The notes beneath the pieces are model-generated. The model was not told the origin of the DNA. It did no database searches and saw only the letters and a list, made by a program, of their open reading frames with translations. Shown in pieces: positions 17,669 to 44,170 of a stretch of 64,000 nt of DNA; position 1 is the stretch's first letter; every line of letters starts with the position of its first letter. The position numbers and the translations under genes are program-made. Source of the DNA: Owenia fusiformis (Eukaryota > Annelida > Polychaeta > Sabellida > Oweniidae). Location of the stretch: NCBI GenBank assembly GCA_903813345.2, contig CAIIXF020000005.1, positions 21,515,375 through 21,579,374 on the forward strand, written 5' to 3'.

Positions 17669-19998
17669 CCAGAACAACGGCAACGCCAAAGCGTAGCGAA
17701 TCCCATCGAACAGAAATGGATGGCATTTTTACAAACGAAGCGCAAATATCATAAAACAACACACCAGAAAGGCCACCATTTTCAAAATGGTTGCTCACTA
17801 GCCAAGTTGTCATCAGAAGAAATAATATGCTTTTAAGTAGCCACCTCTAAAATTTTTTGAGAAAACGCACACGTACTTGTAAAATAACACACATAAAAAT
17901 GGTGGCCATTTTTCAAAATGGCCGACTACTCCCCAAAGTTTTATTAGACAATGTGCCATGCTTAAAGTATACACATATCAAATATGAACAAAATCGCTCC
18001 ACTACTTTTCGAGTTATAGTAAAATACGTTAAAATGGCGGCCATTTTTCAAAATGGCCACCTTCTACCAAAAGCGTCATTAGAAATGAGTGTGGCAAATA
18101 AGAGGTCGCCAAACGCCAAAAACAGGTAGTGAAAAAAATTTGGCGATAGAAGTTGTTATCTATCTCGACAATTTTGGCGATTGGATGTTAGATCTATTAA
18201 ACTTCACAGTTTTTATCCCCGACATTCTTGAAAAATGAAGTTTCATAGTTGATCCTATTCCCATTCACAAAGCTTTTTATTCTACCTAAAACATGATCAG
18301 AATAGAAGAACATAAAGCCACCTACCTTAGAGAAGAACAATTTGAAGTAAAATAGCCAGATAATCATCAGTATTTAGAAAAAAACACTGAAAAATCATCT
18401 AAATTTTGCCGTGAGCAGGCAGGAAGTTAGCCTACTCAGAGGTAACAATTTTGGTATTGTATCTGTATTGATCGCACTGCCATCTTTATAACTTATGAAA
18501 AACTGTTGAAGTCAAAATTCATTTATAACAACCAGATACCTGTCTAGAACTCCTTGCACATTTGATTTCTTTATTTGTTTATCCTCATTAGACTAAAAAA
18601 AGTTCATGATGTTCATTTTAAAGAGGTTCAATTCAAAAGATGCTACATTTTCAAAATATTGGTCTCTCCAAACTCTGAAATAAAAGCTTCTTTGATGATA
18701 CTACATACTCTAGCAGTATAGCCTAATAACACAATTTTCTTTATCTATATTGTTAGTACATACAACTCTAGTATAGACATTTGATCAGCATGTTCTGTCT
18801 AATTTACCCTCAAAAAATTATGAGTAAGATTTTTCCAACCTACCTACCTGCCAATCCCAAATCTGAAATTTCATGGATCAGGAAACAGACATGTGTTGCC
18901 TTTCCACTTATTTTAAGCAGTTTAATTTACCATTCGCAATTCATGCACAGTTTAAGATGAGGGCAAAATTTATGCTGACTAGACAAAATTATGACCAGAC
19001 GAAAAATATTTTGGCGAGAGTGTTTCAAATGTCTCTGGACAAATTAGGCTATAGTGAAAAAATCCTTATTTGCCAGATGCTTATAGTATTCACATACCAA
19101 ATATGAACAAAATCGCTCCACTACTTTTCGAGTATTAGTAAAATACGTTAATGGCGGCCATTTTTCAAAATTGTTTTCAAAATGGCCGCCTTCTACCAAA
19201 AGTGTCATAGGACAGTTTGCCATGCGTATAGTATTCACATACCAAATATGAACAAAATCGTACACTACTTTTCGAGTTATAGTAAAATACATTAAAATGG
19301 CGGCCATTTTTCAAAATTGTTTTCAAAATGGCCGCCTTCTACCAAAAGTGTCATAGGACAGTGTGCCATGCTTATAGTATTCACATACCAAATATGAACA
19401 AAATCGCTCCACTACTTTTCGAGTTATAGTAAAATACGTTAAAATGGCGGCCATTTTTCAAAATGGCCGCCTTCTACCAAAAGTGTCTTTAGACACTCTG
19501 CAATGCTTATAGTATTCACACACCAAATATGAACAAAATCGCTCCACTATTTTTAGAATTACAGCAAAAATCGTAAAATGACGACTAAAGGCCGCCATTT
19601 TTCAAGATGGCTGCCATGTGCTTTTTAATATCTACATTTGTAGCATTATTAATGTCCTTCATAATTTTTTTTACATTTTAAACATATTGCTATTACAGTT
19701 TTACATATTGCACCTAAATTACTGTAAAATCGTCACTAAAATGGCCGCCATTTTGAAATGAGCGGCCATTTTGAAAATCGGCTTTCGTGCAGAACTTCTA
19801 CCCCCATAGGGTATATGTGTACGAAATATGAACAAAATCAGGCCAACGGTATTTGAGTTATTGCCCGGACGGACGGACGGACGGACAGACGGACGGACGG
19901 ACGTACGGACGGACGTACGGACGGACGTACGGACGTACGTACGGACGGACAGACGGAGGCGTTCCCTATATCCCTCCGAACTTCGTTCGATGGGATAA
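17669..19998 (-). mobile_element. Helentron-like (HINE) element, copy 3, abutting FAM184A exon 2
   Basis: Starts CCAGAACAACGGCAACGCC and ends CTTCGTTCGATGGGATAA. Tandem units as in copy 2 run 17760-18085 and 19079-19575, followed by a (GGAC)n/(GGACGTAC)n tract at about 19866-19951. An unrelated block (18088-19076) interrupts it. Its right edge is about 10 bp inside the intron from the exon 2 donor, so the splice site has element sequence immediately downstream. Confidence 0.78.
18088..19076. mobile_element. element inserted in Helentron-like copy 3
   Basis: It interrupts the repeat unit AGAAAT...GCCATGCTTATAG, which is continuous in the other copies. The ends share TGGCAAATAAG (18092) and CTTATTTGCCA (to 19075). 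No clear target duplication and no coding frame that I recognise. Confidence 0.55.
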
Positions 19999-20008
19999 TA
20001 AAGCATAC

Positions 20009-20881
20009 CTGTTTTGCAAGATTGCCAGATTCACTGTTTTGGTTTTTCAACAAAGATTGCAACTTCTCCAACTCTGCTTTGTATTTGGCACTTTCATCTT
20101 CACTGGAGCTTAACTGACCAATAAGATCATCAACACGTTTTTTATACTGCACTTGATTAAAAGAGAGATCTTTTTTCATGGTTTCAATTTGTGTAGTTAA
20201 CGTCCTTATTTTTTCCTCTGCTGAAGCATTTTGTCCATCTTTTAGAGCTTGTAATTCTTTTTCATAAAATGTTTGAGCTTTAGATAATTTGGATTCATAT
20301 TCCTCACTTATTGTCTTTTTATCTGTATTTAATTGATCACATTGTGTTTTTAAATCCTCAATTTCCTTGAAATATTTTTCTTCTAATTGTTTTTGAGCAC
20401 CTTCGATATCACCTTGTTGATTTCGTTGGGTTTTCATTAACTCTTCAATTTCTCGATGGTGTGCTTTTCTTAGGTCATCTAAAGCATTCTGTTTGTCCCT
20501 TTCAAATTCAGCTCTAACATCATCAAATTTTTTCAACTGATCTTCAAAGGTCCGCTTTGCTGCTAAAATATCTTTTGATAAAGCCAGCACATTTTGTGAA
20601 TGCTCTGTCTTTAGTTGAATTTCTCTCTCTTCTGTTTGCTTTTTGTAATCCTCAAACTCTCCAAGATATTGTTTTTTCTGTTTTTCATGGTCAGCTAAGG
20701 TTTGTTCCAAGGCTTCTATCCGCCTTTTATGTTCAACCTCACTGCCAATTTTATTTTTATAAAGTGAAACTTTGTCTTTGGTTTCTGCCAAGAGTTGCTG
20801 TATTTCTTCTTCATGCTGTTTCTTTGTGTTTTGTAGTATGGCATCATGCTCATCATTTTTGGTGTTAAGGGCATAAATCAC
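20009..20881 (-). CDS. FAM184A: FAM184A-like coiled-coil protein, exon 2 (FAM184 domain)
   Basis: Large 873-nt exon, 291 codons, phase 0 at both ends, residues 48-338. It opens VIYALNTKNDEH and continues with EEIQQLLAETKDKV, LEQTLADHEKQKKQ, DLRKAHHREIEEL and YESKLSKAQTFYEKELQALK. All of these align with the conserved N-terminal FAM184 domain of vertebrates. The whole exon is E/K/Q-rich with heptad spacing, so it should form coiled coil. The acceptor is a pyrimidine tract ending TTTCCAG at 20882-20883 and the donor is CAG then GTATGC. A Helentron-like element begins about 10 bp into the following intron. If intron 2 were retained, the frame would run on to about 19838 through a (GGAC)n microsatellite and add a PSVR-repeat tail. 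The 3' end NLAKQ joins LAQAQAEA of exon 3, matching the vertebrate junction. Confidence 0.95.
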
Positions 20882-29111: not shown

Positions 29112-29364
29112 GATATTCCTCTTGAAACATGGTGGATCTTAAAAATATAAAAGTGGAAGTCCCCTTTTTGAAGCTTTGAACTGAATTTACACTTCTTAAT
29201 GCTGAAATTGATAATTTATCCATACATTTTAAGAAAATAGGTATGTCAAAGAAGATGTTAAACCAAATGTTGCCTTGATAGCTCAGAAAAAATGAAAAAA
29301 CTTTCCTATTTTCTCTACAGTCCTTATTGCCCCTTTAAATACATAGAGGTTATTTAATGGGAGG

Positions 29365-29510
29365 GATGGAATATGGATTTTATTCCGAGGGAAAATATGA
29401 TATTGGCCAAGGAAAATATCATATTGACCGAGGGCGATAGCCCGAGTGTCAATATGATATTTTCTGAGGCCAATATCATATTTTCTCAAGGAATAAATCC
29501 ATATTCCATC
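29365..29510. repeat. 146-bp palindromic element
   Basis: ATGGAATATGGATTT pairs with AAATCCATATTCCAT. Inside, AATATGATATTGGCC pairs with GGCCAATATCATATT around a GAGGGCGATAGCCCGAG centre. It is a hairpin-forming MITE downstream of the recombinase gene. Confidence 0.8.
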
Positions 29511-29802
29511 ACGACCATCAATAACCTATTTATTTCATAATATTTTTTTTCAATTTTTGTATGTCATCATCCAATGATTGTGACATAAAATTATACAATT
29601 TATCATATAACATTTTCAACTTTTATTATCAAGTTTTACTTAAAAATATAAATAATTTATAACAATAAAATGGCTCATAATATGGCAAAATAAACACAAT
29701 ATCATGAAACGTCTTAATGAAACATGTGGATGTAGAATGTGCCTACATGTATGTACTTTTCAAGAATGTCTACATCTTATTCCATACTGTACATATCAGT
29801 CA

Positions 29803-30200
29803 TTACTCTTGAGAACTGTCACTACTACTATATATAATTCTCCTGTACTTTCTGCTCTTTACAGGGGAATCTTCAATTGCATGTGCTCCACTTGCTGACC
29901 CAAAATGAAAATTGAATACACCCCTAGCATTTCCAAAGGAAGTGCTGGGTGCTGGCCCAGAACAAGCTGATGATGCCCTCTTTGTAGACTCTGGAGATTC
30001 TGAACGCTTCCCACTTGATATTGTGTTACTTATCTGTTCTTTCTTTTTCATTGACATTTTGCTATAATTGTTTACACTTAAAACATTCTTCCAACCCATG
30101 ACTTTCTTAATGTTGTTGATTTCAACGTCATTATCCACCATCGTTTGTGCGGCTGTTTTTCTAGCTGAATAGTTGGTGATCTTCTTGTCTTGGATTCCCA
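29803..30200 (-). CDS. Crypton-type tyrosine recombinase, exon 3 (catalytic domain, part 2; stop)
   Basis: Last exon, completing codon 288 and ending at a TAA (29803-29805), for a total of 419 residues. It holds KKITNYSARKTAAQTM (box II; R301 present, but the usual H of HxxR is Y298), then MGWKNVLSVNNYSK with W324 in the H/W position and Y333 as the predicted nucleophile. A serine-rich tail follows with GVFNFHFGSASG, resembling the short aromatic tail of related invertebrate proteins, and a basic patch KSRKYRR. The acceptor is TTGTTCATTGCAG. An AATAAA on this strand (TTTATT at 29622-29627) is a possible polyadenylation signal. It could be a mobile Crypton copy or a domesticated host gene. An intact frame plus two introns favours an expressed gene, which is my inference. 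Confidence 0.87.
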
Positions 30201-30460
30201 CTGCAATGAACAACGGCACTGTCGGGTTAATAACATTACGATATGGACAGATGAGATATTGTTGCAGATAATGGATATGGGATAAAAAAAAGTTGAGTGA
30301 TATTGGATAAAAATTATAAGGGATATGGGATATCAAGTACAGTGTCAAACCTTTAAATTGAAAACTACTAATTGTAACAAAAATACAATAATTCACCTAA
30401 TGAAACTTTTCAATAATGTCTACATCTATAATAGTACTCAAAGAAATTGGTAAAACTAAC

Positions 30461-30889
30461 CTTTAACAGCTGCATTACGCATGATAGAATCTATAGAGTT
30501 GTGTCCCATAGGCCTGGGGTAGAACCATTCATCACCCTCAGAGAAGTTATCTTTCTTTATCGGTTGTAGATAAAATGGCGCATCTGGATTCAACATTGTC
30601 CTATGTGAAGCATACTTCTCATATGCAGCTACAGGGCAACGATCACTACCTGGAATTTCAAACATTAGCGGAGGATCCTCTCTGATATTGCGCTCATCTT
30701 CACCCGTCCTTGTCTTCGTTTGTCGTTCAGTTAATCTTAGATATTTCTTTCCATTTACTGACACCAATTCCTCAATGTCACCCCAGCATAAGTTACGCGC
30801 TTCACGTCCTGTCCGCATTCCAAAGTGTGTTGTATTGTTATAATACACTGTTGTGAGAAGTGATGTTGGATTCTCTAATCCAAAGCCTC
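30461..30889 (-). CDS. Crypton-type tyrosine recombinase, exon 2 (catalytic domain, part 1)
   Basis: Middle exon, codons 145 (split) to 288 (split), phase 1 in and phase 1 out. It encodes NPTSLLTTVYYNNTTHFGMR, then LCWGDIEE, TKTRTGED, RCPVAAYEKYASHR and a PDAPFYLQP segment. R170 in HFGMR is the first catalytic arginine of tyrosine recombinases. The KTRTG segment is where the beta-hairpin lysine normally sits. The acceptor is TTGTTTTTGCAG and the donor is AAAG then GTTAGT. The spliced order matches KIAA1958-like proteins, and there is no frameshift or internal stop. The 260-bp intron 2 follows. Confidence 0.87.
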
Positions 30890-31048
30890 CTGCAAAAACA
30901 ATGTGATAAAAAACATGTAGATAAATTACATGATTATTTTAGATTTGATAATATCAAAAACATACATAATCTTTTAATCATGTGTCTTAACCTTCATTGC
31001 ATGTGAAACAATGACATAGAGTTTTAGTGACTTTAGTGCATGTCATCT

Positions 31049-31179
31049 ATGCCTGGGTCACAAATGCTGCGATTCGCCGGCCGATTGAGCATTCTGTTCA
31101 AAAATGTATTCAATTTTGAAGAAAATACTCAATCGGCTGGGCGCCGGCCGATGAATCACAGCATTTGTGACCCAGGCAT
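31049..31179. mobile_element. 131-bp palindromic MITE in recombinase intron 1
   Basis: ATGCCTGGGTCACAAATGCTG and CAGCATTTGTGACCCAGGCAT are exact inverses, and complementarity continues through GGCCGATTGAG / CTCAATCGGC. It lies 34 bp from the exon 1 donor of the recombinase gene. A target duplication is not clear. Confidence 0.82.
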
Positions 31180-31212
31180 TAGCGAGATTCCAATGTTGTT
31201 CATGGCATTTAC

Positions 31213-31645
31213 CTCTTGAATACAGGATATCGATTTCGTCATTGTCAAGGCTTGCTGCAGCAAACGGCTTATTTCCAAGACCTTGACTTTTCAAATTCTT
31301 CTGCTTTGATTTTAGAGCAGTTCGGCACTTATCAAATACGATGGACTTCAGCAAATCTTCCATGTATTCTTTATCCTTGAGATATCTTGCGATGCTGCTC
31401 ATAAAAGCTCTTAAGGTTGATGGTTGATATTCTGCACCATCCTCCTTTCTTATGTTAATGAAAAAATGTTTGAGGTGGTCATTAAGATCATGGGGATCTA
31501 TCTCCTCGATCGGTCTGAGTTCATTCCTCTCAATCCGTAAAAAATCTACTAGGATTTTTATGTCACTTTTAGTTTTCTTCGAAGTATTGATATTTTCTTG
31601 ACCTTTAATGAAGTCATCAACATCCTCTGTTGCATACCTAGACAT
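31213..31645 (-). CDS. Crypton-type tyrosine recombinase (DUF3504/KIAA1958-like), exon 1
   Basis: First exon, codons 1-144 plus one base. It encodes the N-terminal SAM-like core-binding part of the protein, with NTSKKTKSDIKILVDFLRIE, RPIEEIDPHDLNDHLKHFFI, STLRAFMSSIARYLKDK and GLGNKPFAAASLDNDEIDIL. These motifs are typical of the metazoan KIAA1958-like family derived from Crypton DNA transposons. The ATG at 31645 begins MSRYATEDVDDFI, a usual start for these proteins. The donor is AAGAG then GTAAAT. The following 323-bp intron carries a small palindromic MITE (31049-31179). The gene lies inside FAM184A intron 1, same strand. No promoter motif was recognised. An extra upstream non-coding exon cannot be excluded. 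Confidence 0.85.
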
Positions 31646-32186
31646 ATTTGTCACAGTAATAGACCTTTGTCACAGTAATAGACGTAAACTAGATGATAAT
31701 AATTTCAATAATTTCAATTTTCCAAACGATTTTTTTACTTCCTGTAGCTAGAGATGTGCTAGACGAAAAGCGTAAAACTCAAGAGAAATTACCGGGAATA
31801 TTTCTGATACGGGATCTGATACGGGATTTTTGCTGATACGGGATCCAATACGGGATCTGATACGGGATTATGGCTGATACGGGATCTGATACGGGATTTT
31901 TCAAATAACACTTTTATTCCCTGTTATTTTCCCAGGGAAAACATGTTATTATGGAATAATATATAGTATTCGTGTAGTTTCCCGGGAATTTGCAAATTTA
32001 AGCGCCCGGTTTATTTTAACCCCGGTTAATTTTAGCGAATTGAATTTTTAGCGAAACTATAGCGATCGCTAACAATCGCTAACAATTACCCCTCGCTAAC
32101 AATACCCGTTTTACAGTATTAGACAGTTTTTATTAAATTTTTATACATGATATTCATTAATTAGAATTGACGAAAATCCTTACAAA
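31646..32186. other. upstream flank of the recombinase gene with GATACGGGAT repeats
   Basis: Between 31800 and 31905 the word GATACGGGATCT/TTTT is repeated about seven times. Near 31990-32110 AATTTTAGCGAAACTATAGC-type words recur. A promoter for the minus-strand recombinase gene would lie here, but no clear TATA or initiator was found. Confidence 0.5.
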
Positions 32187-44029: not shown

Positions 44030-44170
44030 TTTTGTTAACTGTGCAATCTTTTTTGACATCTTAAGATGCATATCTTGTGTAATATCCATGTCTTTTCCCA
44101 TGTTTTGTGACAAGGTTCCATAATTTCCGTTCTTGTAATGGTTGTGAGACATTTTGGCACTGGCTGCCAT
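44030..44170 (-). CDS. FAM184A: FAM184A-like coiled-coil protein, exon 1 (start codon)
   Basis: First coding exon, 47 codons, phase-0 end. From memory of vertebrate FAM184A, the segment QDMHLKMSKKIAQLTK matches the vertebrate N-terminus almost residue for residue, and joining to exon 2 gives LTK-VIYALNTKNDEH, the conserved junction. The ATG at 44170 was chosen because its context (CCAACATGG) is good and MAASAKMSHNHYK resembles the vertebrate start in length and spacing. A second ATG lies six codons in. The exon ends AAA then GTATGG, a usable donor. FAM184A is a long, mostly coiled-coil protein of poorly defined function, and nothing enzymatic is visible. Intron 1 is about 23.1 kb and hosts the nested recombinase gene. 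An ancestral FAM184 predating the A/B split is equally possible. Confidence 0.9.

Follow-up and report, generated by a model that had tools for sequence, protein, structure and literature searches.

An undamaged copy of a mobile Crypton-type element in an intron of an Owenia fusiformis FAM184A gene, with a left end predicted to fold on an inverted copy of its own joined ends

Introduction

A spliced tyrosine recombinase gene with an open frame, lying inside the intron of a host gene and carrying a tyrosine where the active-site histidine of the HxxR motif is expected, could be either a domesticated host gene or part of a mobile element. Such a gene is present in a 64,000-nucleotide stretch of the Owenia fusiformis assembly GCA_903813345.2 (contig CAIIXF020000005.1, positions 21,515,375 to 21,579,374), hereafter the window. 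A first-pass annotation, made from the sequence alone, described it as an intact three-exon Crypton-type recombinase gene in FAM184A intron 1 with the box II histidine replaced by tyrosine, and proposed either a domesticated DNA-binding protein or a recombinase tolerant of this change. We therefore asked which of the two it is, and how an element carrying it would move. Loci found in the assembly are numbered with the prefix L, and C followed by a number denotes a contig.

Results

The recombinase gene and its position in the host gene

The gene as first described is real. Three exons with GT-AG introns give a frame of 1,260 nt, stop included, coding for 419 residues without an internal stop. 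Pfam DUF3504 (5.2e-19) and Phage_integrase (1.1e-8) matched the protein. In an alignment of eight family members R170, K203, R301 and Y333 are invariant, whereas position 298 is Tyr in three and His in five, so that the full R-H-R-Y tetrad is lacking here. A profile of these proteins matched QRICH1 (3.3e-13) and, weakly, XerA (5hxy, E 0.0023), whose HVLR histidine falls in the column of Y298. The only FAM184 match in the assembly lies on one side of the element and the preceding exon ends on the other, both on the minus strand, indicating that the element lies in that intron of a FAM184A gene and on the same strand; the name intron 1 rests on those two exons. The FAM184 exon frame runs on into a simple (VRPS)n repeat, and elsewhere in the window a 264-codon frame looks like the C-terminal part of a LINE-type reverse transcriptase (Table 1).

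Table 1. Positions of the features within the 64,000-nucleotide window
Feature	Position	Strand	Basis or remark
Whole element (2,617 bp)	29343-31959	-	orientation given by the recombinase gene; same two ends in the C4 copy and in deleted copies; empty sites of two sister insertions
Exon 1 of the tyrosine recombinase	31213-31645	-	N-terminal part
Exon 2	30461-30889	-	R170, K203; most of DUF3504
Exon 3	29803-30200	-	Y298xxR301, W324, nucleophile Y333, stop
Codon of R170	30815-30813	-	
Codon of K203	30716-30714	-	
Codon of Tyr298	30171-30169	-	HxxR histidine position
Codon of R301	30162-30160	-	
Codon of W324	30093-30091	-	
Codon of Y333	30066-30064	-	nucleophile
Left-end hairpin (predicted)	29347-29527		one long imperfect stem
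Inverted copy of the circle junction	29503-29542		right end joined to left end; foot of the hairpin
Element spacer ATAGAGG	29343-29349		just inside the left joint
Shortest right end among 19 copies chosen by their left end	31796-31959		L096, 164 bp
GATACGGGATCT-type tandem repeats	31807-31917		inside the shortest right end kept
Subterminal inverted pair (15 nt, 87%)	29383-29397 / 31925-31939		
MITE-like inverted repeat	31049-31179		inside recombinase intron 1; shared with L001 and in part with L002
FAM184 domain exon of the host gene	20252-20881	-	3' side of the intron that holds the element
End of the preceding FAM184A exon	44030-44053	-	KKIAQLTK, donor GT
(VRPS)n repeat	19838-20030		continuation of the FAM184 exon frame
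Frame of 264 codons	8541-9335	-	LINE-type reverse transcriptase-like

The gene belongs to a mobile element

The frame sits inside a Crypton-type element, and the assembly (498 Mb, 525 contigs) holds many copies related to it. A tblastn search gave 102 matches, with 100 of 209 candidates scored. A copy on C4 is 99.2% identical over 2,623 bp and has the same ends, whereas others are internally deleted; 51 internally deleted copies were read. The right end alone gave 40 scored matches at 97-100% (500 candidates) and the left end 40 at 98-100% (1,481 candidates). The central part gave 4 matches, of which only two, the window and C4, were full. The C4 gene is frameshifted by a 2-bp deletion in exon 2 and differs in addition by 6 coding substitutions. 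The window thus holds the only undamaged copy found, although the assembly has gaps and others may have been missed. The three exon frames are the only frames of 90 codons or more in the element, and neither TIR nor target-site duplication was found, the subterminal inverted pair being the only such repeat at the ends.

To define the insertions, we searched with the joined flanks of deleted copies, which for two of them found high-copy host repeats without the element. In 5 of 5 sites for L011 and 5 of 5 for L013 the insertion is exact, with the gap always 3 nt and no base gained or lost apart from the element, while two candidate sites (L052, L053) for a third copy, L015, could not be aligned, giving ten of twelve candidate empty sites. 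L015 itself (C1:60418500-60421500) is a deleted copy that seems inserted in the head-to-tail junction of a related family, so junctions of relatives may serve as targets. The joined ends, TGTTATTATGGAATAA followed directly by ATAGAGGTTATTTAATGGG, occur head-to-tail at 36 places with up to 3 mismatches (6 exact; reversed control 0), which is consistent with excision as a circle. Two of these junctions, C5:21503882 and C5:21506238, lie 9-12 kb outside the left edge of the window.

Tyr298 is shared by the lineage

The first-pass annotation had named many copies with His and a single mutated copy as the finding that would point to a mobile family with one mutated member; this was not found, since 2 of 2 family copies that retain the box II region, the window and C4, have Tyr. 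Tyr is also present in three diverged relatives whose longer hits are 34-50% identical to the window protein: L021, with all exons open but Gln at the W324 place, L023, with exon 1 disturbed, and L022, which is degenerate. The L022 locus (C2:35408500-35418000) has a minisatellite of about 4.7 kb between exon 1 and exon 2 whose units match the start of exon 2, and repeated NYSARK-like units in place of exon 3. His is found in the sister families L016-L020 and L041 and in the more distant L024-L027, L029, L030, L032-L036, L038 and L040. The decayed L031 and L037, which hold stops, have Trp and Arg, and L028 and L039 do not cover the place.

Tyr298 therefore predates the recent burst. A tree of 17 rows, leaving out L017, L018, L022, L028, L031, L033, L034, L037, L038, L039 and L041 as near-copies or fragments, is compatible with one or two origins of Tyr (the Y label needs 2 changes; 16% of bootstrap trees need 1). 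However, intron 1 is in the same phase and place in the window gene and L021, while the hits of the His-type L016-L019 run through that place unbroken and that of L020 runs past it, which favours a single origin. A scan of viral contigs with the family alignment gave 11 pattern hits, none of which was confirmed.

Insertions join at one edge of a dyad target

We next compared the joints of 56 loci. Four had no pairable ends (L007, L008, L012, L102) and one of the 54 rows, the second of L074, was a false pairing, leaving 52 loci with 53 joint pairs. All 53 left joints carry the 7-nt spacer of the element (51 ATAGAGG, 1 ACAGAGG, 1 ATATAGG), whereas 50 right joints carry a target spacer and the other three run into another element. 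When the four rows that touch another element (two of L002, L009 and L112) are left out, 49 of 49 insertions show this arrangement, and because the anchors lay outside the spacer the search did not impose it. Across 48 of these targets (L074 also left out) the signal is A-4 T-3 A-2 and T8 A9 T10 T11, that is, inverted half-sites 8 nt apart with an unspecific spacer (AATA-N8-TATT), the joint being 1 nt into the spacer. Both half-sites fit within one mismatch each in 35 of 48 targets, against 0-3 at eight shifted positions.

A His-type family, which has the same core at its ends, agrees with this pattern. It is far larger, with 722 right-end and 1,026 left-end pattern places (reversed controls 5 and 10), many of them in tandem. 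Of 100 listed left joints 87 have exactly ATAGAGG, with 50 different flanks, and of 100 listed right joints 80 have a non-element spacer and 20 an element-like one. Its targets differ from those of the Tyr family at +11 (p 9e-5) and, less strongly, at +7, +9 and +10 (uncorrected), which speaks for separate enzymes.

The left end is predicted to fold on a copy of the circle junction

The first 201 nt of the element are predicted to fold as DNA into one long stem (-66.2 kcal/mol, z -15.6, 0 of 200 shuffles), whereas the last 201 nt are not (z -1.8, 9 of 200). The foot of this stem is the near reverse complement of the circle junction and is therefore complementary to both ends of the element. 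Two further families with unrelated end arms, the His-type L017/L018 (z -13.1) and the Tyr-type L021 (z -14.3), have the same arrangement, and in L021 29 nt of right end match without a mismatch; the ends of L019, L020 and L023 could not be settled. The junctions of the three families scored 59, 68 and 95 against their own inverted copies, but at most 25 against the copy of another family and at most 27 elsewhere in the element or in direct orientation. A 2-nt bulge in the spacer recurs in the predicted folds of the three families and in 8 of 15 relatives, while one relative has only a partial inverted copy and six show none. Covariation within close relatives, 82-91% identical to the window end, is weak: 6 of 78 pairs change on both sides (shuffle mean 3.7, maximum 6) and 657 of 675 cells are paired (shuffle maximum 652).

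In one deleted copy, L074 (C2:13703200-13704990), the hairpin foot reads as a perfect inverted copy of 125 bp of its own left flank plus the spacer, without a bulge there. We read this as fold-back copying primed at the hairpin, which shows that the end can fold in vivo but also that inverted copies can arise there as by-products, so that an inverted junction copy could have arisen in a circle or tandem rather than been selected.

The left end with its inverted copy is also kept by the deleted copies. Since right-end length in L060-L079 and left-end length in L094-L113 are biased by the query that found them, each was read only from the other set. In 32 of 32 deleted copies chosen by protein or by right end the inverted copy is retained: the left breakpoints (22 distinct) start at +200, where it ends, 16 fall within +200 to +283 and none falls between +35 and +199. 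L074, whose 191-bp left end is the inverted insertion, was entered as 29758. Hairpins can themselves attract deletion endpoints, so a requirement in cis is not the only possible cause. The shortest right end kept includes the GATACGGGATCT-type repeats, and a similar stretch in the opposite orientation lies in the His-type locus L020 (3236-3367).

Discussion

All these data indicate that the gene is part of a young Crypton-type DNA transposon. The two interpretations offered by the first-pass annotation fared differently, so that it was right only in part: domestication is not supported, whereas a recombinase tolerant of the change at box II fits better. The sequences themselves establish the precise ends, the absence of target duplication, the joining at one position of a dyad target, the head-to-tail copies with a circle-like junction, the dozens of internally deleted copies, the Tyr in this family and three relatives, and a left-end hairpin sequence that carries an inverted copy of the joined ends. 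The remainder of our model is inference from sequence alone, including recombination, folding and the activity of the protein. In this view, the element leaves or is copied as a circle, the recombinase (R-K-Y-R-W-Y) works with Tyr298 in place of His, the joined ends fold with the inverted copy into a hairpin site with a 2-nt bulge in the spacer, only one strand is exchanged with the double-stranded target, and replication finishes the reaction, as in the published scheme of integron cassette insertion (PMC8946536). We give this reading as a whole a probability of about 0.8. Its parts are not equally secure: that the element is a mobile Crypton is nearly certain, that the Tyr298 enzyme drove the burst is likely, exchange of one strand only is somewhat more likely than not, and the folded site as the true substrate stands at even odds.

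An argument for one-strand exchange is that a two-strand exchange across unmatched spacers should leave either spacer on either side, whereas only one outcome is seen. However, an exact joint without duplication, always at one edge, would also come from any blunt or single-nick insertion and does not prove a folded site. The His-type family has the same hairpin and one-sidedness, indicating that Tyr298 is not needed for them, and a His enzyme acting in trans is not excluded. Regarding the residue itself, Tyr or Gln at this place is reported for a small subset of tyrosine recombinases, and Cre with His289 changed still recombines, although Flp H305A is blocked after cleavage (PMC4381057), so that loss of this His is not always tolerated. 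The archaeal pNOB8-type integrases (R..YXXR..Y) also have Tyr at the HxxR histidine position in a natural mobile-element integrase (PMC8371274), a comparison made at this one residue only. A literature search for wording around replacement by tyrosine returned no paper.

Two alternatives, both doubtful, remain the strongest. In the first, the main rival for the role of the inverted copy, that copy is a splint like the internal complementary regions (ICRs) of DIRS1 retrotransposons, which in the published model are complementary to both ends and to the junction and involve no target duplication (PMC3266345); it would hold the ends of a linear single strand together to be joined into a circle, which would then integrate by an ordinary double-strand reaction. 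The complementarity in three families fits this. Nevertheless, the element has no reverse transcriptase-sized frame and so no obvious linear single strand, the complement sits next to one end inside one long hairpin, and the spacer is always on the left. In the second, integration is an ordinary double-strand reaction, the hairpin is a regulatory or replication feature, the inverted copy is a by-product of fold-back copying and one-sidedness comes from repair bias. A dyad target with an 8-nt spacer and a joint 1 nt inside is a loxP-like geometry of normal tyrosine recombinases, and L074 shows fold-back copying into the hairpin foot. Against this stand the 49 of 49 one-sided joints with unmatched spacers, the apparent 200-bp cis requirement that ends where the inverted copy ends, and the recurrent bulge, which is absent from the fresh copy in L074.

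It is less likely still that the Tyr298 protein is dead or weak and that the deleted copies were moved in trans by a His-type relative. The abundance of a His-type family with the same end core, and the single intact Tyr copy found in this family, would fit such a view, but end arms, hairpin and inverted copy are family-specific, target preferences differ, and Tyr is shared by diverged relatives, one of them (L021) with all three exons open. A mutation in a single copy is ruled out by the sharing of Tyr, a classical DDE transposon by the lack of TIR and TSD, and a Helitron, although the hairpin and lack of TSD would fit, by ends that are not TC...CTRR and by the tyrosine recombinase gene. Lastly, a domesticated DNA-binding host gene is very unlikely despite the clean frame and splice sites and the position in a conserved host gene's intron, given the mobile family with empty sites and deleted copies, the frameshifted near-identical copy, and the retention of R, K, R and Y, whereas the known domesticated DUF3504 genes lost the catalytic Tyr and second Arg (PMC3212892).

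By gene content and insertion behaviour the element is a Crypton, and it resembles the CryptonA and CryptonI elements of animals (PMC3212892) in being recombinase-only, with a DUF3504-type tyrosine recombinase, no target duplication and abundant internally deleted derivatives. It differs in the Tyr of box II, the three exons, the defined ends, target dyad and empty sites, and the hairpin with an inverted junction copy, where that paper reports no terminal repeats in animal Cryptons. With DIRS1-like retrotransposons it shares a tyrosine recombinase, an inverted internal copy of the joined ends, a circle model and the lack of target duplication, but it has no other frame of 90 codons or more in 2.6 kb for reverse transcriptase, RNase H or methyltransferase and no inverted terminal repeats, and its complement lies beside the left end in one hairpin. 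Integron attC sites (PMC8946536) are, like the fold predicted here, imperfect palindromes with bulged bases and a long variable stem, with one-strand exchange with a double-stranded target described there and inferred here; in the present case the genome is that of an animal, the full folded site would exist only after the two ends are joined, and the targets are dispersed and AT-rich. The strand-biased integrative elements, SEs (PMC9345347), have in common with it a tyrosine recombinase, a 6-bp spacer and exchange of one strand only, the last being inferred here, but are bacterial, and we found no such hairpin described for them. Among the titles and abstract openings listed in our literature searches, none described this end architecture for Cryptons.

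How animal Cryptons move is an open question, since the main survey cites a circle model made by analogy (PMC3212892). Here the ends, a target rule, empty sites, a predicted folding end kept by the deleted copies and a recombinase with Tyr in box II are found in one genome with one undamaged gene, so that excision, strand choice and the role of Tyr298 become directly testable. A further possibility, which we hold as tentative and slightly less likely than not, is that an animal DNA transposon integrates by single-strand site-specific recombination, its joined ends folding against an inverted copy of themselves stored in the left end to give a bulged hairpin from which the recombinase passes one strand into dispersed targets, with Tyr or His in box II. 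This would be an integron-like reaction in an animal and would tie Cryptons to DIRS retrotransposons through a shared internal complementary region. If the folded-site reading holds, single-strand site-specific recombination is not confined to bacteria and their phages, and the internal complementary regions of DIRS elements gain a likely source.
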